DNA from: Acetivibrio sp. MSJd-27
GTDB lineage: Bacteria; Bacillota; Clostridia; UMGS1840; HGM11507
Assembly: GCF_018918095.1 (NCBI RefSeq)
Contig: NZ_JAHLPV010000009.1
Coordinates: 1 to 64,000, forward strand
Reading direction: 5' to 3'
DNA length: 64,000 nt
A model generated the notes under the pieces. The model ran no database searches. It had not been told where the DNA came from and saw only the letters and a list, made by a program, of their open reading frames with translations. Both the position numbers and the translations under genes were made by a program. Positions 40,157 to 54,356 of this stretch are shown piece by piece (positions within the stretch are counted from its first letter, which is position 1; every line of letters starts with the position of its first letter).

Positions 40157-40200
40157 TGGCACCCCCGACCAGAATCGAACTGATAACTAGCCCTTAGGAG
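40157..40200 (-). other. ICE left attachment site: 3' fragment of tRNA-Arg(CCU)
   Basis: On the minus strand these 44 nt form the 3' part of a tRNA: anticodon loop CTCCTAA (anticodon CCU, Arg), 3' anticodon stem GGGCT, a T arm with loop TTCGATT, the 3' acceptor strand CGGGGGT, discriminator G and encoded CCA. No 5' half (D arm, acceptor 5' strand) follows on the right; unrelated element DNA begins instead. A transcription terminator follows the CCA, so this was the chromosomal 3' end. Integration by the tyrosine recombinase at 40546-42009 is inferred; the restored tRNA should be at the other end of the ICE. Confidence 0.8.
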
Positions 40201-40545
40201 AAGCCCCCGAGGGGCATTTTTGACTCCCTACAAATCCCCGAAAATCCTTGATTTTACTGGCTTTTCTGGGATTTCACTGTTAGTAAATTCTCGTCCAAAA
40301 CCTGCTAATTTTTCGTGGTTTTTTGCCTTCCTTTTAGCAGGGTATTAGCAAATGCAAAGAAATATGGGAAACATCATTGAGTTAATCTGTAGCCCATAAA
40401 TCACAGGAAACGCATTTGAAGTTTACGCATTCTCTTATGCAAATCAATAATCTGTGTTCAAATATTATAATGGTTTTTCTTCTTGATTTCAAGATTTTTC
40501 AGGAATTACAAAAGGCAACCCTGACGGATTGCCTTTTTTGTATGA
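40201..40545. other. ICE left terminal region
   Basis: No gene is present. A GCCCCCGAGGGGC hairpin lies right at the junction, and short inverted A/T-rich motifs (AAATCCC/GGGATTT) could be arm-type integrase sites. A bidirectional hairpin AAAGGCAA...TTGCCTTT near 40509-40541 likely ends integrase transcription. Confidence 0.55.
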
Positions 40546-42009
40546 CTAAATTGTTTTCGCTAAAGCCTTTAATAATGCTGCTGTTTCCGGATTTGATAAC
40601 AGTTTTGTGAGCAAGGCGGCGTTTTCATCTGTACTGTTCTCAGCAGGCTTTTCTTTTTCAACTTCGCTCTCTTTTTGAACCTCTGCCATTGGGTCAAGGA
40701 GTTCAACCGAAGTTTCAAACTTGGGCATTGGAGCAGTTTTACCTTCTTCCGCATTTTTGAGACCTTTAGCGTTGTAGAACTGTTCCTCAAACTTCTGTGC
40801 GTTATATCGCCTGTCCTCGTCGATTATATGGCTGTAAACATCGGCAACCATATCCATTCGGGCGTGTCCTGAGTCGCCTTGAACCGATTTCATATCGCCG
40901 CCGTTCCATTTCAGCTTGTAGGTTATACTTGCGTGACGGAAGCTGTGAAATACCACATCGGGTAAGTCGTTGTCCTGTATCAGCTTTTTCAAAGCACGGT
41001 TGATTACCTGACCTTCCATCGGTCTGCCTGACGAATGGCAGAATACCAAGTCATAATCCAAATACTCATCACCGAAAAGCTCTTTCATTTCGTCAATCTG
41101 CTTTTTTCTCTCTAACAGCATTTGAGCTACGGTTGACGGCAAGAAGATTTTTCTCACACTTGTTTTAGTTTTTGGCGTTTTCAAAACAAGGGAGGTATTT
41201 GTATTTGACAGAGTTCTCGGAAAGACACGGATAATGTCCTTATTATCAAGCACCTCCATTACATCTCTGTTTACTCGCTGAAGCTCTTTATCTACAAAAA
41301 TGGAAGCGTTGTTTTCTTTCAGGCTTTCCTCCGAAATATCAATGCAATCCCAAGTAAGACCGAGCATTTCACCCATACGGAGTGAACAGGCAAAGGATAA
41401 ATTGATGGCTAATGCGAGAATATCATCATCGCACACTTCAAGAGCGTGCATAAGAGTTTCTGCTGTCCATATTTCTCGTTTCTGATGTTCCTCTTTCGGG
41501 AGCGTTGCATTGAGAACCGGGTTTCTTGTCATCAACTCCCATTTTACCGCCTGATTAAAGGCACTCCTTAAAAACTTATGGATTTCTCTTACGGTATGTA
41601 CGGTCAGATACTCATTTTTAGGCTTTTTATTCTGTACCACTTTGGTCTTAACTTTCAGAAGGCTTTGATAGAATTTATCCATAAGTCTCGGAGTCAGTTC
41701 ATCAAGTTTCACATCGCCGATAAGCGGAATGATGTAATTATACATAAGCCCTTTCTTTGAACGGTAGGTTGACATTGCCCAGTTATTTACTCCGTACACG
41801 GAGCAGTATTCTTCAAGCAAATCCGCAACTGTCGTAGCATTAGGAATGATGAATGTACCGCTTTGCTGTTCAAACTCAATTTGAGTTTTTCTCTTTTTAG
41901 CGTCTGCGTTTGTATCAAAGGTTTCCCATTTTTGATGTTGGTTTCCGTCATCGTCTTTGTAGGTATAAACGACGGAATATCGATTCTTTCTCTTTACAAT
42001 AGAAGCCAT
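40546..42009 (-). CDS. int: Tyrosine recombinase (ICE integrase)
   Basis: The 487-residue protein has an N-terminal arm-binding domain, a SAM-like core-binding domain (AMSTYRSKKGLMYNYIIP) and a catalytic domain with Arg in CSLRMGEM, HSFRHASITY, GHARMDMVADVYSH with the tyrosine nucleophile. It is longer than most (about 400) because of an acidic C-terminal tail rich in E/K and N/A. It is encoded nearest the tRNA attachment site and follows an excisionase-like gene by 12 bases. Confidence 0.95.
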   Translation of the reverse strand: MASIVKRKNRYSVVYTYKDDDGNQHQKWETFDTNADAKKRKTQIEFEQQSGTFIIPNATTVADLLEEYCSVYGVNNWAMSTYRSKKGLMYNYIIPLIGDVKLDELTPRLMDKFYQSLLKVKTKVVQNKKPKNEYLTVHTVREIHKFLRSAFNQAVKWELMTRNPVLNATLPKEEHQKREIWTAETLMHALEVCDDDILALAINLSFACSLRMGEMLGLTWDCIDISEESLKENNASIFVDKELQRVNRDVMEVLDNKDIIRVFPRTLSNTNTSLVLKTPKTKTSVRKIFLPSTVAQMLLERKKQIDEMKELFGDEYLDYDLVFCHSSGRPMEGQVINRALKKLIQDNDLPDVVFHSFRHASITYKLKWNGGDMKSVQGDSGHARMDMVADVYSHIIDEDRRYNAQKFEEQFYNAKGLKNAEEGKTAPMPKFETSVELLDPMAEVQKESEVEKEKPAENSTDENAALLTKLLSNPETAALLKALAKTI

Positions 42010-42021
42010 AGTCGTTCCTCC

Positions 42022-42228
42022 TTATTCATTATCCAGCCATTTATCAAAGCTGGTCTTTATTATGCGGTATCCGGTTTCGAGCATTACTGCCTGAAAACAC
42101 CCCTGTTTGATGAGCTTATATACGGTCTGTCGGGTAATACCCAAGATTGACTGAACTTCCTCTACGGAATAGCTCTTTTTTGTATATGTACCGCCGTTTA
42201 ATTCACGAACTCTATCCTCAATCGACAT
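42022..42228 (-). CDS. Excisionase-type HTH protein
   Basis: The 68-residue protein is a single HTH_17/MerR-like domain (YSVEEVQSILGITRQTVYKLIKQG...YRIIKTSFDKWL), as in Tn916/Tn1549 Xis. It lies directly before the integrase gene and is a likely recombination directionality factor. The ATG at 42228 follows GAGGGAT; it overlaps the end of the three-HTH gene upstream. Confidence 0.88.
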   Translation of the reverse strand: MSIEDRVRELNGGTYTKKSYSVEEVQSILGITRQTVYKLIKQGCFQAVMLETGYRIIKTSFDKWLDNE

Positions 42229-42919
42229 ATCCCTCCACCTCCTCGATTTCCTTAACTTTAGTGTATTTACTTTGCGAAGCGTACCACTTATCAAAGCTTT
42301 CTCTTTTTATTCGGCGTTTACCGTCAACCCATATAAACTCAACAATGCCATCGTTCATAAGGTCATTTGCGGTGCTTCTCGGAATGCCGAGTACCTTTGC
42401 AACAGTAAGAGGAGAGAGCGTTTTGCCGTATTTCTTACCGGGTCTTTCGCCGTTTACTTTCTCATAATGGAATTGTCCTGCATACCAATCTTCAAAGCTA
42501 TCCACATCAACTCTCATTTTGCCCAGTACCAAATAGGTCTTAAATCGGCACTGATTGATGAGTCGGTATGTAGCCGTCTTTCCAAGACCGAGTATTCTCA
42601 TTACGTCGGGTACAGACATTGTCTTTTTGTCCTGATATGTAAGAACTGCCTTGACGATTTTCTTATTTTCTTCAACGCTTTTCTTTGAAGCTCTGTATTC
42701 GTTGCCGACTCGGTATGTTTTGAATAAGCCGCAATTCATCAGTTTCAGTGCTTCTTCTTCGGAAATGGAAAACAACCGAGATATTTCCTTGACAGAATAG
42801 GCTTGCCACTGTGCTTCCTCCTGAAGCTTTTCATCGCTGAACAATTCTGCCAAGCGTTCATTTTCCTCTCTGAGATTAAACTGCTCCACTCGGTCATTGA
42901 ACATATTAACAAATGCCAT
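42218..42919 (-). CDS. Protein with three tandem excisionase-type HTH domains
   Basis: The 233-residue product contains three HTH_17-like units: YSVKEISRLFSISEEEALKL, MSVPDVMRILGLGKTATYRL and LSPLTVAKVLGIPRSTANDL. Each is followed by a wing-type (RR/R)..K.S...W end. Single-domain proteins of this type flank it on both sides, so it looks like a fusion of tandem duplicates. It could bind spaced repeats near the attachment site or at promoters. The start at 42919 follows GGAGGTTC and overlaps the upstream gene by 14 bases. Confidence 0.85.
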   Translation of the reverse strand: MAFVNMFNDRVEQFNLREENERLAELFSDEKLQEEAQWQAYSVKEISRLFSISEEEALKLMNCGLFKTYRVGNEYRASKKSVEENKKIVKAVLTYQDKKTMSVPDVMRILGLGKTATYRLINQCRFKTYLVLGKMRVDVDSFEDWYAGQFHYEKVNGERPGKKYGKTLSPLTVAKVLGIPRSTANDLMNDGIVEFIWVDGKRRIKRESFDKWYASQSKYTKVKEIEEVEGYVD

Positions 42920-43157
42920 CTTCAGAACCTCCTTTCTCGCCATTGAGCCAATTTTCAAAGCTCTTTTTAGATATTCGATATTGACCTCCGACACGAACGC
43001 TATGGAATTTCTTGCTTTTAAGCAGCTCATAGACGGTAGTTCTGCTCACTTTCAAGATGTGCTGTATATCATCTACCGTGTATGCTCGTATATCAGGTTC
43101 AGTCTGCCTGAATGTATTAGGAAGTCGAGTATCGCTCTTTTCAATTTTCTTTCGCAT
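42906..43157 (-). CDS. Excisionase-type HTH protein
   Basis: The 83-residue protein has a basic N-terminal tail and a single HTH_17-like domain (YTVDDIQHILKVSRTTVYEL, GGQYRISKKSFENWL). It is highly similar to the 86-residue protein upstream (GGHYRISKKSFDRWL), so the two are recent duplicates. It overlaps the three-domain gene by 14 bases. Confidence 0.85.
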   Translation of the reverse strand: MRKKIEKSDTRLPNTFRQTEPDIRAYTVDDIQHILKVSRTTVYELLKSKKFHSVRVGGQYRISKKSFENWLNGEKGGSEDGIC

Positions 43158-43194
43158 TACCGTTTACCCCCGATTTCTTATTTGCCACTCTGAC

Positions 43195-43227
43195 TACCAT
43201 ATAGCCAAGTGACTTGGCTATATGGTA
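43195..43227. repeat. Perfect 33-bp palindrome
   Basis: TACCATATAGCCAAGT and ACTTGGCTATATGGTA, a 16-bp perfect inverted repeat with one central G, lies between two excisionase-type genes. No T run follows, so it is more like a binding site than a terminator. Confidence 0.85.
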
Positions 43228-43248
43228 CTGAAAATCGGAGTTTTTGTT

Positions 43249-43277
43249 AATTATGCGATTGGTTTAATCGCATAATT
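43249..43277. repeat. Second perfect palindrome at the end of the HTH gene
   Basis: AATTATGCGATT-GGTTT-AATCGCATAATT: 12-bp perfect arms with a 5-base loop. It covers the stop codon of the 86-residue HTH gene, so may fold at the transcript end. Confidence 0.8.
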
Positions 43278-43524
43278 GACAACCGGAGCTTTCGCTGTCC
43301 ATATTATCAAGCCATCGGTCAAAGCTCTTCTTGGAAATTCTGTAATGTCCGCCGACCTTTACAAAATGGAAAACGCCTGAGTTGACGAGAGCATAAGCAG
43401 TGTTCTTTCCAATGCTGAGAATATCCATTATTTCTTCTACCGTATAAACTCTTTTCTCAAAGCCGGAACTATCATCAACAGCGTTGGGTAGTTTGTTCAT
43501 TGCTTCAATCTTATCTTCAAACAT
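43264..43524 (-). CDS. Excisionase-type HTH protein
   Basis: The 86-residue product has a single HTH_17-like domain (YTVEEIMDILSIGKNTAYAL, GGHYRISKKSFDRWLDN) behind an acidic N-terminus. The start at 43524 follows GGGAGGTG and overlaps the end of the MazF-like gene by 8 bases, so translational coupling is likely. Confidence 0.85.
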   Translation of the reverse strand: MFEDKIEAMNKLPNAVDDSSGFEKRVYTVEEIMDILSIGKNTAYALVNSGVFHFVKVGGHYRISKKSFDRWLDNMDSESSGCQLCD

Positions 43525-44095
43525 TGTCAACACCTCCCTTAGCGTGATGATGGTTCTTTTTGAAAATCATATAGTCATAGCCGTATCCTACCTGACATTT
43601 ATCGCACATCTCTTTATCTGCCTGAAAGGGGTCAAGTCTTTTTACAATGTTTTCAGGGATAGACTGAAACTCGCTTCTGCAACGAGGGCAAAGACTTAGT
43701 ACAATGCCTTTACGCTCTGTCTTGGGTTTAACGGGAATACCGACTGCAAATTTCAATCCTCGCTTGATTTCGCTGATTTTATCTGCGTCGGTAATTCTTC
43801 CGACAAAATTATCAAGCTCTGTGGCTTTATCCACGGTGCGTAGCTGCTCAAGCATTACCATCGACGGCTCTTTTAAGCCACAATCCGTGTTTAGCTCAAT
43901 ATGAGTATTCATTGCCGTTTTCTTTTTAACAGCCGTTATAGCGGCTACAACGACCGTAGGACTGCTTTCATTTAAGCGATTTGTCTGAACCACAAGAACC
44001 GGTCTCATTCCCGATTGCACACTACCGTTTGTAACCCCCAAGTCGCAGTAATAAATATCGCCCCATCTGACATTCTTAAATTCTTTTTCTTTCAT
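43517..44095 (-). CDS. MazF/PemK-family toxin fused to a zinc ribbon
   Basis: The 192-residue product has a MazF/PemK fold over residues 1-115 (WGDIYYCDLG, MRPVLVVQTN, SPTVVVAAIT, MVMLEQLRTVDK). It then carries about 70 extra residues with CPRCRSEF and CDKCQVGYG, a four-cysteine zinc ribbon. Normal MazF has about 110 residues. No antitoxin gene lies before it; the gene upstream is a sigma-like factor. RNase activity is expected from the family; the zinc ribbon may alter targeting. Confidence 0.85.
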   Translation of the reverse strand: MKEKEFKNVRWGDIYYCDLGVTNGSVQSGMRPVLVVQTNRLNESSPTVVVAAITAVKKKTAMNTHIELNTDCGLKEPSMVMLEQLRTVDKATELDNFVGRITDADKISEIKRGLKFAVGIPVKPKTERKGIVLSLCPRCRSEFQSIPENIVKRLDPFQADKEMCDKCQVGYGYDYMIFKKNHHHAKGGVDNV

Positions 44096-44195
44096 ATGTA
44101 AATCCTCGCTTTCGATTATTCTGAGGTAATTCATATCCGGATTAGAATTAACCCCTTCACTTGTTTGAAATGGGAGAGCGTTTTTGGGGGGTGTT

Positions 44196-44735
44196 TTAGA
44201 AAAATTTCCTCAACTTTTTTATTGCACTGTTTACCGATTCCCTTACAGAAGTAAAATCGACTCCTTCTTCATCTGCGATTTTTTCAAGTGTTTTGTTGTA
44301 GAAGAAATACTTAAAAACTCTGCGTTTCTGTGTTTCGCTTAAGTAACACAAAACCTCCCGAAGTCGCTTAATATTGTCTTTCAGCATTATTTCTTCGATT
44401 GGGTCTGTATCGACTGCCAATTCCGGATGATGCACTTCAAATTCTCCGTCATTGATGTCAAATGCGTGTCCGAAAAGAAGCCTTCTCATTCTCTCTCTTG
44501 CTTCGTAGTTCTGATACTCCGTTATCACTTCGCCCTGAGCCATAGAAAGCAGAATGAACGGAGTGTACCGACGGATAACATCAGGGTATTTAACCCACAA
44601 TTCTTCTTCCGCCAGTTCTGTTACAATCGCCCATTTCTCCGTGCCGGTGTAGCCGTGATATTCATACCGCAGGTTAATGAGCTTGCAGTCGTTCGCAAAT
44701 AATAATTCCTGTTGTTCTAATGTAAGTTTTGTCAT
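44196..44735 (-). CDS. Sigma-70-like regulatory protein
   Basis: The 179-residue protein ends in a region-4 HTH (LREVLCYLSETQKRRVFKYF, LEKIADEEGVDFTSVRESVNSA), but has no clear region 2 helices for -10 recognition, so it may be a partial sigma or a regulator. Two further region-4-like genes occur in the cargo. It sits behind a structured leader with a terminator and a leader-peptide frame. Confidence 0.7.
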   Translation of the reverse strand: MTKLTLEQQELLFANDCKLINLRYEYHGYTGTEKWAIVTELAEEELWVKYPDVIRRYTPFILLSMAQGEVITEYQNYEARERMRRLLFGHAFDINDGEFEVHHPELAVDTDPIEEIMLKDNIKRLREVLCYLSETQKRRVFKYFFYNKTLEKIADEEGVDFTSVRESVNSAIKKLRKFF

Positions 44736-51165: not shown

Positions 51166-52386
51166 TCAATCCCGCTTCTTTCCCGCCACCGGCACTAAGA
51201 ACAGCGCGGGCAACAGCAGGAAAGCGGTACAGACCAGCCCCCAGGGTATGGACACCTGCTGGGCTACCAGCCCCACAATAGGCCCGCCGATGATCTGCCC
51301 GAAAGAGTCCAGCTGTCCGCTGGTGGAAAAGACTGTGGCGCGCATTTTCTCATCCACATGGTCGTTCATCCAGGCGGCCAGCACAGGCTCCTTGATGGTG
51401 CGCATAAGCCCCGCCAGCAGGAACACCAACAACATGAACCAAAAGCTCCGCCCCACCGCGAAGAGAACCAGGCACAGGATATACCCGGCGCTGGTGGACA
51501 TGACCACACTGGTTCGGCTGACAGTCCCTTTTTTCTCCATGCGGGCGATGAGCAACTGAGAAGCCAGAATACCTAAGCCGCTGCCGATAAGACTGATAAC
51601 ACCGAACCAAGTGACGCTGTTCAGCGGCCCGATAACGGGTATTACCGTGTCATCCAGAAAATGAGCGGTGGAGAGCCGGTCAAAGCCTTCACTGGCAAGT
51701 CCCCCGCATAGTGTGATTGCTAAGAGCGCCAGCAACACAGGTGCGCCTTTCACAAAGCCCAGGTTGAGCTTGAACAGGCAGACAAAGTCTTTAAGCAAGC
51801 CCTGCCGTTCCTCAATAGCAGGGGAGAAGTTGGTTTCTGGCATGATGCGACCCAACACCAGCCCCAACAACAAGCACAAACTGCCCCCCAAGATGAGAGG
51901 CATTTGCAGGTTTATGTTTCCCAGCAGTGTGCCCAGCACCACGCCCAGAACGCCGCCGATTTGCCCCATTTGACTGCCCCGCAGGAACACCTTGTCTATG
52001 GGTTTGTCCTCTTCCTCCGAGGCAATCCACGCCTCCAGAGCGCCGGTGATGAAGGTATCACCGCAACCCCAGACAACCTGGGCCAGCAGAACCGTCGCGA
52101 ACCACGGTAGCGCACCCTCCATCAGAAAGCCCAGGCCGTAGAGGAACATTCCAATCAGCACCGAGCGCCGACGGCTATACAAATCCGCCACCACACCGGT
52201 GGGCATCTCGAACAGAAAGCAGGAGGTCTCCTGAACCGTCCCTACCAGGACAAGCTGGAAAGCATCCAGCTGCACCACCTCCAGGTGGTACACGATGGAA
52301 AGCACTGTGGACATAGAAACCGCCAGGGAACAGACAAATCGGAACAGCAGGTAGACAGAATATGCCTTTGAATTTTTAGCAAACAT
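51166..52386 (-). CDS. tet(40): Tetracycline efflux MFS pump Tet(40)
   Basis: The 406-residue length and start MFAKNSKAYSVYLLFRF match my recollection of Tet(40). It has about 12 helices, the MFS motif A region (GVVADLYSRRRSVLIG) and AWIASEEEDKPIDKVFL. It exports tetracyclines in exchange for protons. It lies 50 bases downstream of tet(O/32/O) in the same orientation, a pairing known from human gut Clostridia. G+C is visibly higher than in tet(O/32/O). The start at 52386 is preferred over an upstream ATG by length match. Confidence 0.95.
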   Translation of the reverse strand: MFAKNSKAYSVYLLFRFVCSLAVSMSTVLSIVYHLEVVQLDAFQLVLVGTVQETSCFLFEMPTGVVADLYSRRRSVLIGMFLYGLGFLMEGALPWFATVLLAQVVWGCGDTFITGALEAWIASEEEDKPIDKVFLRGSQMGQIGGVLGVVLGTLLGNINLQMPLILGGSLCLLLGLVLGRIMPETNFSPAIEERQGLLKDFVCLFKLNLGFVKGAPVLLALLAITLCGGLASEGFDRLSTAHFLDDTVIPVIGPLNSVTWFGVISLIGSGLGILASQLLIARMEKKGTVSRTSVVMSTSAGYILCLVLFAVGRSFWFMLLVFLLAGLMRTIKEPVLAAWMNDHVDEKMRATVFSTSGQLDSFGQIIGGPIVGLVAQQVSIPWGLVCTAFLLLPALFLVPVAGKKRD

Positions 52387-52436
52387 GAAGTTACATTCTC
52401 CTTTCAAATCTCATTTTATATGACTTTTGCAAGCTG

Positions 52437-54356
52437 TTAAGCTAACTTGTGGAACATATGCCGAACCTTATCTATACGGCTATTCGGGCGGCGGGGTTGG
52501 CAAATAAATTTACCAATAGCTGGCTGGTATCCTTTTAACTCTGTCAAGCAGACTCCCTGCCCATTTGTGAAATAAGTTAAATCGTTCCTGTATTCTTGAA
52601 TACATCTAGCAGGGATTTCTCCTTTCAGAATGACCTCGTCATTCTTTATCTGAGTACTTACAATATCTGCACAATACCTTGGAGCATCATGATACGCCCG
52701 TGAGAGATATTCCTGCGGTGCATAAATTTCAAAGTGGAGATATGGCTCTAATAGTTCTGTCCCTGCTTTTTTTAAAGCCTGCTCCAATACGATAGGGGAA
52801 AGCAGCCGAAAGTCTGCGGGGGTACTTACAGGACTATAATACAATCCATATTCAAAACAGATTTTACAGTCTGTCACTTTCCATCCATACAGCCCCTGCT
52901 CGCAGCCATAAAGAACCCCCTCCATAACCGCATTTTGGAACGATTGATTTAAATATCCAAGTGAAACTCTGCTTTCATACTGCACTCCGCTTCCAATAGG
53001 GAGCGGCTCTATGGACAACCCGACAGAAGCCCAGAAAGGATTTGGCGGGACTTCTATGTGGATGGTATATTCTGCTTTTCTAAGCGGTCTTTCCAGATAA
53101 ATAACCGAAGGCTCTTTCATAGCCACGCCCACATGATATTTTTCTTCTAATAGCGAACAAATAACTTCTAACTGTACTTTTCCCAAAAAAGATAACATAA
53201 TCTCATGTGTAACAGTATCAATGTCAAAATGCAAAAGAGGGTCTGTATCAGCAATCTCTGCGAGGGCATTTAACAGGGCTTCCCTTTGCTCCGGCTTTTG
53301 CGGCTCTACCGTTGTCCGAAGTAATGGCATGGGATTATCAATCCATGTTTTGTGAGGCAGGAGTTTTTCATTTCCCAGAATGTCGTTCAGTTTCAAAGTA
53401 TCATCAGCTAAAATAACAATTTCTCCCGGACAGGCATGGTCAGCCGGGACGATTTCACCATTTGACGGAATACACATTTCTGTAATCTTTATTTTTTTCT
53501 TTTTTGACAGCAGCAGGGTATCCCGTAAATGGAGCGTCCCATGATACAGGCGTAAATAAGAAAGCCGTTTTTTCCGCTCTGTATACTCAACCTTAAAAAC
53601 ATATCCACATAATTCAGACTGAATATCGTCTGTTTCTGTAATGAAAGTTTCTGTAACCGCTTCAATCAGTTTTTCTGTTCCTAAATTGTCTTTTGCACTC
53701 CCATGATAAACAGGAAACAAAGAGCAGCATCTGGTTCTTTTGCACTTTTCATATTGTAATTCCTGTATATCCAAAGAATCCTCTGCAACATATCGTTCTA
53801 ATAGTTCATCGCTTCCGGAAATAATCATATCCCATTTGTCCAAATCAGAAATATCGGTCATGGATATTTGGGGCGACAGGGAAACCTCCTGCATGACAAT
53901 CATATCACTGGTAAGTTTGTCTTTAATGCTTTGGTAAACACGCTGTAGGTCGATTCCATTTTGGTCTATCTTATTTATAAAGATAATTGTCGGAATGTTC
54001 ATTTTCTGAAGCGCATGGAATAATATACGCGTCTGTGCCTGTACGCCGTCTTTTGCCGAAATGACTAAAACAGCTCCGTCAAGGACAGATAAAGCACGGT
54101 ATGCTTCGGTTAAAAAATCCATATGGCCTGGCGTATCTATAATGTTGACTTTTACATCCTCCCACTGAAAAGATGTCACTGCTGTCTGGATAGTGATTCC
54201 CCTTTGACGCTCCAAATTCATTGTATCTGTCCTTGTTGTGCCTTCATCTACGCTCCCTAGTTCTGCAATTGCACCACTGGTATACAATAAACTTTCCGTT
54301 AATGTTGTCTTTCCTGCGTCAACGTGAGCCAGAATGCCTAAGTTAATTATTTTCAT
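52437..54356 (-). CDS. tet(O/32/O): Mosaic ribosomal protection protein Tet(O/32/O)
   Basis: This 639-residue protein has an EF-G-like GTPase with [17 protein letters not shown] and NKID. It removes tetracycline from the ribosome. From memory, the first 75 or so residues match Tet(O) or Tet(32). Residues about 80-430 ([36 protein letters not shown]) match Tet(32). The rest ([20 protein letters not shown] onward) matches Tet(O). This is the known mosaic class; exact crossovers need alignment. It is controlled by the attenuator leader upstream. Confidence 0.92.

Follow-up and report, generated by a model that had tools for sequence, protein, structure and literature searches.

Directly upstream of a tyrosine integrase gene in the window (the whole stretch of 64,000 nucleotides from Acetivibrio sp. 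MSJd-27 that was analysed) lie four adjacent genes that together encode six excisionase-type helix-turn-helix (HTH) domains, three of them fused in one protein. The cassette, genes A to D, is real, conserved and well delimited, and the function that we propose for it is in excision. We suggest, at a probability of about one half, that A to D form the excision-control cassette of the integrative and conjugative element (ICE) in which they lie, and that the fused protein B acts as a covalent head-to-tail oligomer on the att arm and/or the operon promoter. The domains, their fold class, the linkage, the series of domain numbers among relatives, the purifying selection and the att core were observed. 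The reading also draws on a promoter and an RNA pairing that are predicted, and for DNA binding, a role in directionality and an oligomer-like geometry it is we who infer.

In the mechanism that we propose, the single-domain class-X proteins D, C and A would be winged HTH (wHTH) recombination directionality factors or regulators. Protein B would be an array in which two ancestral class-Y wHTH domains are covalently joined to a class-X-like N-terminal domain, probably lying on DNA as a pre-joined head-to-tail oligomer in the manner of the monomers of lambda Xis, BldC and RdfS, where it could help to bend the att arm and/or repress the operon promoter. Genes C, B, A and INT are probably translationally coupled behind a promoter of their own, since they overlap or nearly touch. 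In read-through RNA from the PemK-D side, the ribosome-binding site of C would be paired with the promoter spacer; RNA from the operon promoter would be without the pairing strand and would leave the site free, so that the cassette would be silent unless its own promoter fires.

Four genes with six HTH domains

The genes all lie on the minus strand: D (43264-43524; 86 residues), C (42906-43157; 83 residues), B (42218-42919; 233 residues), A (42022-42228; 68 residues) and, last in the operon, the integrase gene INT (40546-42009; 487 residues; Pfam Phage_integrase 5.7e-15, Phage_int_SAM_3 9.2e-9). C overlaps B by 14 nt and B overlaps A by 11 nt; 12 nt separate A from INT, and 106 nt separate D from C. 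The coordinates confirm the arrangement given in the original prediction, three single-domain proteins and one three-domain protein directly upstream of the integrase gene. Its count of six excisionase-type domains in four genes is borne out by Pfam HTH_17, with E-values of 2.1e-11 (A), 4.6e-15 (C), 1.4e-15 (D) and 6.3e-21 (B, three matched stretches), and by NCBIfam TIGR01764 ('excise'), whose cut-off is exceeded by all four proteins. The RefSeq record of Monoglobus pectinilyticus annotates the same four genes, of 86, 83, 233 and 68 residues. C and D have GG.YRISKKSF..WL in common, as had been noticed at the outset, and are identical at 27 of 50 positions. None of the array proteins reaches the Pfam cut-off for the Tn916 Xis family (PF09035), for which only D gives a match (15.7 against 22.9 bits).

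D overlaps by 8 nt a PemK/MazF-like gene upstream of it (43517-44134, minus strand; Pfam 3.5e-23), and in many relatives a PemK-like gene lies upstream of the first HTH gene. These observations, together with the promoter-leader that stands between D and C, would fit D being the antitoxin of the PemK-like toxin, with any role in excision limited to C, B and A. We consider this improbable: D scores as an excisionase with TIGR01764, and in six related loci (L052-L055, L059 and L060) a D- or C-like gene is present while the stretch covered contains no PemK match. The PemK-like protein itself carries, past its PemK domain, a C-terminal extension with CxxC pairs that reads as zinc-ribbon-like.

Five of the six HTH domains pass the HTH_17 cut-off individually in a six-frame scan of the genome. 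The exception is B1 (42668-42799), a degenerate domain that scores 20.6 bits alone against a cut-off of 27; its recognition helix, SEEEALKL, is acidic, and B1 may not be a DNA binder. B2 (42476-42619) and B3 (42272-42403), located by the same scan and on the same strand, fall in class Y of the domain tree, B3 lying 67 residues past B2. Fused proteins among the relatives hold two, three or four domains at a spacing of 67-69 residues, with the exceptions of B1-B2 (60) and the last pair of L060 (81). In the B2-B3 linker, residues W145, Y146, A147, G148, Q149, Y152, K154, V155, G157, P160 and G161 do not vary among 13 proteins.

The AlphaFold2 model of B (mean pLDDT 77.5) shows wHTH units, residues 1-37 are poorly modelled, and the orientation of the domains is uncertain (pTM 0.56). 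Structural comparison gave matches of single domains of the model to BldC, a developmental regulator (6amk; Z 7.2, 50 residues, 1.5 Å), Pukovnik Xis (4j2n; Z 7.2, 52 residues, 2.1 Å), GIsul2 Xis (8c3t; Z 6.6, 55 residues, 2.2 Å), RdfS (8dgl; Z 5.7, 66 residues, 6.2 Å), Tn916 Xis (1y6u; Z 4.6, 53 residues, 3.4 Å) and lambda Xis (1rh6; Z 4.3, 48 residues, 2.9 Å), where a Z below 8 may stem from a common arrangement. As modelled, the domains of B have a wHTH fold like that of known Xis proteins; B was the one protein modelled, and its third domain is barely covered by the matches and is identified from its sequence. Searches with the whole protein gave less: a PDB sequence search with the alignment of B returned nothing at E≤1, and the Foldseek matches of the whole B model were below significance (best E 0.014). 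For D, the PDB sequence search returned Tn916 Xis as its sole match, at E 0.29.

Relatives, domain number and selective constraint

Scanning genome contigs with B yielded 29 related loci, and the six-domain form for which the original prediction had proposed a search occurs in 12 of them (L014-L025), the other 17 having fewer domains. D, C, three-domain B, A and INT are all within the stretch in ten of the 12, while L015 and L017 end at a contig edge before D. Thirteen loci (L028-L039 and L042) have D, a two-domain protein and INT; the domains were counted in three of these, and the lengths of the open reading frames and the scores agree for the rest. D and a two-domain protein are found in L026 and L027; L040 has another single-domain gene in addition to these, and L041 has a single-domain gene with a two-domain protein. 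Beyond the 29, L051 and L057 combine D with a three-domain protein at 68-residue spacing. In L058, D is accompanied by a two-domain protein and A. L059 and L060 pair a C-like gene with a longer protein, in which four domains were matched for L060, and two by profile and two more by eye for L059. L056 is of the L028 type, and L061 is another copy of the window type. At the lower end of the series, L052-L055 have one single-domain HTH gene directly upstream of INT, their integrases being 47-48% identical; the smallest form found is one class-X gene adjoining int. The HTH genes are linked to int in every relative whose stretch includes int, so that the lack of linkage which would have spoken against the original prediction does not occur. 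Their products are excisionase-type wHTH proteins, and the fused one is, as had been suggested, modular, a conserved protein of variable domain number.

In a sample of 391 genomes of the class, four had matches to B at E≤1e-8 and seven had matches to INT at E≤1e-110, this genome being included in both counts. Among the matches listed for 118 class genomes (to about E 1e-6), the genomes with a cluster of at least three HTH_17 matches within 2 kb are this one and G051. In the latter (L066:2956-3846, on G051:C1) a different integrase follows three small HTH_17 genes, on a related backbone with PemK-like, sigma-like and ImmA genes, and multi-HTH arrays therefore also occur with another integrase type. 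In L026, from Anaerofilum sp. An201, we observed an extra class-X HTH gene downstream of INT (L026:7681-7977). Four phage-named records (MT836186, MT836781, MT837272 and MT840067) carry relatives of the array. A viral origin was rejected, as the scan of IMG/VR found no viral relative (0 encoding loci) and the phage-named records are short, unannotated and unverified faecal contigs.

In a tree of the domains (50 columns, inner branches mostly weak), class X, comprising A, C, D, B1 and the single HTH genes, is separated from class Y, which holds B2 and B3 together with those of the two- and three-domain proteins (SH-aLRT 99.3 / bootstrap 96). B1 falls within class X beside D on a long branch, a placement that is uncertain. 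As the simplest order, we infer that a class-X gene adjoining INT is basic and was followed by a two-domain class-Y protein, and then, in elements of the window type, by a third fused domain and more single-domain genes.

Comparison of the window with L014, L020, L025 and L021 gave dN/dS of 0.01-0.07 for B, 0.06-0.08 for A and 0.04-0.05 for INT. For C (0.21-0.67) and D (0.11-0.47) the high values stem from very few changes. Against L022, synonymous sites were saturated for most genes. Constraint on the fused protein is as strong as that on the integrase. The faster evolution of D and C relative to INT is not what a factor locked to INT would show, and this counts against the excision-cassette reading.

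It could be argued that the array is the leftover of repeated duplication, its redundant copies partly decaying and the fusion having no special role. The range of one to six domains among relatives, the degenerate B1 and an order of C-like and D-like genes that appears swapped in L022-L024 (with weak tree support) would agree with such a history. We nevertheless hold it improbable. In the comparisons made, the four genes all have open reading frames and show purifying selection, and against L014, L020, L025 and L021 B retains 93-100% amino-acid identity while dS reaches 0.47. Conservation of the cassette across species and the dN/dS values rule out that the array is a chance product.

The class X/Y separation also speaks for the possibility that B is a transcriptional regulator only, acting on the int operon or on transfer genes, with a single class-X protein, A or D, as the directionality factor. 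The single-HTH relatives, which have one class-X protein, share the tRNA-Arg(CCT) core, and a palindrome overlaps the operon promoter (see below), both of which suit this view. Against it, the gene of B sits within the int operon with overlaps on both sides and is constrained like INT, which would fit a part of the intasome too, and known directionality factors often do both jobs, according to the available text of PMC11963761 and PMC7498355. We regard regulation alone as possible, at odds well short of even, and continue to favour the excision-control cassette with B as a covalent oligomer. A stricter version of the latter, in which B, like its relatives of two to four domains, would belong to a new class of directionality factor, a covalent Xis filament whose fixed number of units, joined by a conserved linker, sets the DNA turns covered and so the bend of the intasome, is more tentative still and seems to us rather doubtful.

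Element ends, arm sites and the D-C gap

A near-identical copy in a genome of another family (G153), together with the att core, places the element at about C9:40193 to 88767 (48.6 kb). It encodes Tet(40), a ribosomal protection protein of the TetM/TetW/TetO/TetS family, a CD1110-family VirB4 and a CD1115-family VirD4, and is an ICE by its gene content. The two resistance genes stand in tandem at 51166-54356. Upstream of the PemK-like gene, 81 bp (44145-44225) are apparently repeated at about 90% identity near the far end (G000:C9:87587-87666, G000 being this genome), judging by cross-matches to G153.

Comparison of the junctions identified the 8-bp att core, CTTAGGAG, at the left element end (40193-40200), which reads CTCCTAAG on the minus strand, and beside it the severed 3' half of the host tRNA-Arg(CCT) gene (40157-40192, minus strand). 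Recombination falls at CTCCTAAG, in the anticodon loop of that gene. Joining the host flanks in silico restores a complete tRNA-Arg(CCT) in both genomes, and no complete copy lies at either element junction in this genome. The element has an intact tRNA-Arg(CCT) gene of its own near one end (C9:88600-88676, beyond the window); the counterpart positions in G153 are C1:154751-154918 and 206174. A pattern search found two matches in this genome, the broken half and the element gene, and four in G153, the same two and two that do not look like a tRNA. An intact tRNA-Arg(CCT) beside INT is also present in L028 and L052-L055. From these sequences, the ICE breaks the host tRNA-Arg(CCT) gene without rebuilding it and supplies a replacement.

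The original prediction had singled out two regions, 40157-40545 and 43190-43280, as DNA that the HTH proteins might bind. The first does hold repeats: no 7-mer is more enriched in the arms than ATTAGCA, which occurs 8 times in their roughly 645 bp and twice in the intervening 47.8 kb, and three TTAGCA/TGCTAA sites lie at 40303, 40334 and 40345 (within 40303-40350), with six more at the far element end, outside the window. TTAGCA sites also occur in the left arms of L026, L028 and L052-L055. Since the last four have one single-domain HTH gene, we assign the repeats to the integrase, as its most likely arm sites, and have dropped them as first choice for binding sites of the fused protein. L051 has no TTAGCA site within 700 bp after int, where, read by eye, a transposase-like sequence seems to follow. 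No direct repeats at 10-12 bp were significant in five regions covering the arms and the D-C gap (lowest p 0.11 for three units and 0.15 for two), and no HTH-specific DNA site was found there. In the left arm, a long block that is nearly identical between the window and L021 is the first candidate for where the HTH proteins would bind.

The second region, in the gap between D and C, is better explained as a promoter with an RNA leader than as a plain operator. On the minus strand, a hairpin at the 3' end of D (HP1, 43249-43277), which has a T-run and is terminator-like in L026 and L028, is followed by the predicted promoter of C-B-A-INT, TTAACA-17-TACCAT (43222-43250; 9 of 12 matches), and by a 33-bp palindrome or hairpin that starts at the -10 hexamer (HP2, 43195-43227). 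The promoter score by itself is not above chance (6 found against 4.7 expected), and a TANNNT hexamer, chosen by eye, recurs in 16 listed loci where HP2, or the hairpin corresponding to it, has its 5' edge. The loop of the HP2 hairpin varies from about 3 to 9 nt among relatives, and the differing spacing of its arms disfavours a simple dimer operator. No second exact copy of the HP2 half-site was found in the contig beyond the palindrome, where a few scattered copies with 1-3 mismatches occur. An Rfam identity for the gap was rejected, since the sole match, a microRNA hairpin, reached 27.7 bits where the cut-off is 97.

In the spacer of the promoter, 43231-43240 is predicted to pair, in read-through RNA, with the ribosome-binding site of C (43167-43176, minus strand). 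In the window, the Shine-Dalgarno (SD) region of C is 2% unpaired in the predicted read-through transcript and 75% unpaired in a transcript starting past the -10 hexamer. The read-through value is at most 0.05 in 9 of the 16 loci, as against 4 of 40 control genes (42 less the two leader genes), and the native transcript gains at least 0.4 in unpaired fraction in 11 of the 16, the exceptions being L040, L026, L057, L041 and L060. A MAFFT alignment of the D-C gap misplaced the 3' strand of L022 and L040, and duplex energies against shuffles replaced the pair count. Of 12 loci, 6 (the window, L014, L021, L022, L058 and L028) have a spacer/SD duplex energy better than that of either shuffle at p<0.05; the result is marginal in L040 and not significant in L027, L026, L057, L041 and L060. 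The combined p of 1.2e-5 is generous, as the shuffles were mononucleotide and the window, L014 and L021 are closely related. The sequences of the paired strands are not the same in L021, L022, L028 and L058, as would suit RNA pairing better than a fixed DNA word. With moderate support, we predict that a conserved promoter-leader hides the ribosome site of C in read-through RNA.

Comparison with known systems

Excisionases are thought to act as short head-to-tail oligomers, the length of which is hard to control experimentally. A natural single-chain protein that fixes this length, with relatives of two, three and four units beside related integrases, would allow oligomer length to be related directly, by experiment, to DNA bending and excision, and the one to six HTH units carried by the relatives offer a graded series for tests of excision control. 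If the covalent-filament reading is true, elements ranging from one to six domains, with their shared tRNA target and similar TTAGCA arm sites, would titrate excision control naturally. As the element carries tetracycline resistance among gut Clostridia, its silencing or release is also of practical interest.

The Tn10 transposase gene is protected from read-through, structured RNA before the gene lowering its expression from outside promoters. Similarly, the int leader of ICEKp1 is described in the available text of PMC13023037 as structured RNA ahead of a recombinase gene that reduces expression from outside promoters. Here, in distinction from both, the predicted anti-SD strand lies within the promoter spacer of the operon that it would protect, and protection would first concern an HTH gene.

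The integration site shows the sequence features of tRNA-dependent integration, with a core too short to restore the host tRNA and a same-isotype tRNA on the element. It resembles the tRNA-dependent lysogeny of mycobacteriophages, which in the available text of PMC10865867 likewise combines a short common core, a host tRNA that is not rebuilt and a carried tRNA of the same isotype; the present case concerns a conjugative Clostridia element and tRNA-Arg(CCT).

The array shares its domain class, fold and tyrosine integrase neighbour with the wHTH directionality factors lambda Xis, Tn916 Xis, Pukovnik Xis, RdfS and Apl. Searches of the open-licence PMC literature for fused or multiple excisionases brought up no title or abstract opening that names a fused one, which is weak evidence of absence. 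BldC of Streptomyces, which was among the best structural matches to a single domain of B, is an HTH_17-type wHTH protein that binds DNA head to tail (from the portion available of PMC11963761); it differs in having a single domain and no linkage to a recombinase. In the same portion, RdfS forms head-to-tail filaments and binds attP and its own promoter with no consensus motif, and for Apl the available part of PMC7498355 describes sites that are direct repeats one helix turn apart, as well as regulation of promoters. By analogy with this action at att and at promoters, the same dual action is proposed here. The known factors are, in the parts of these two sources available, single-domain proteins that oligomerise, whereas up to four domains are fused in the present family and, in the window, three further single-domain genes adjoin the fused one. 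The fused and multiple excisionase-type array is a variation on the known theme of wHTH directionality factors.
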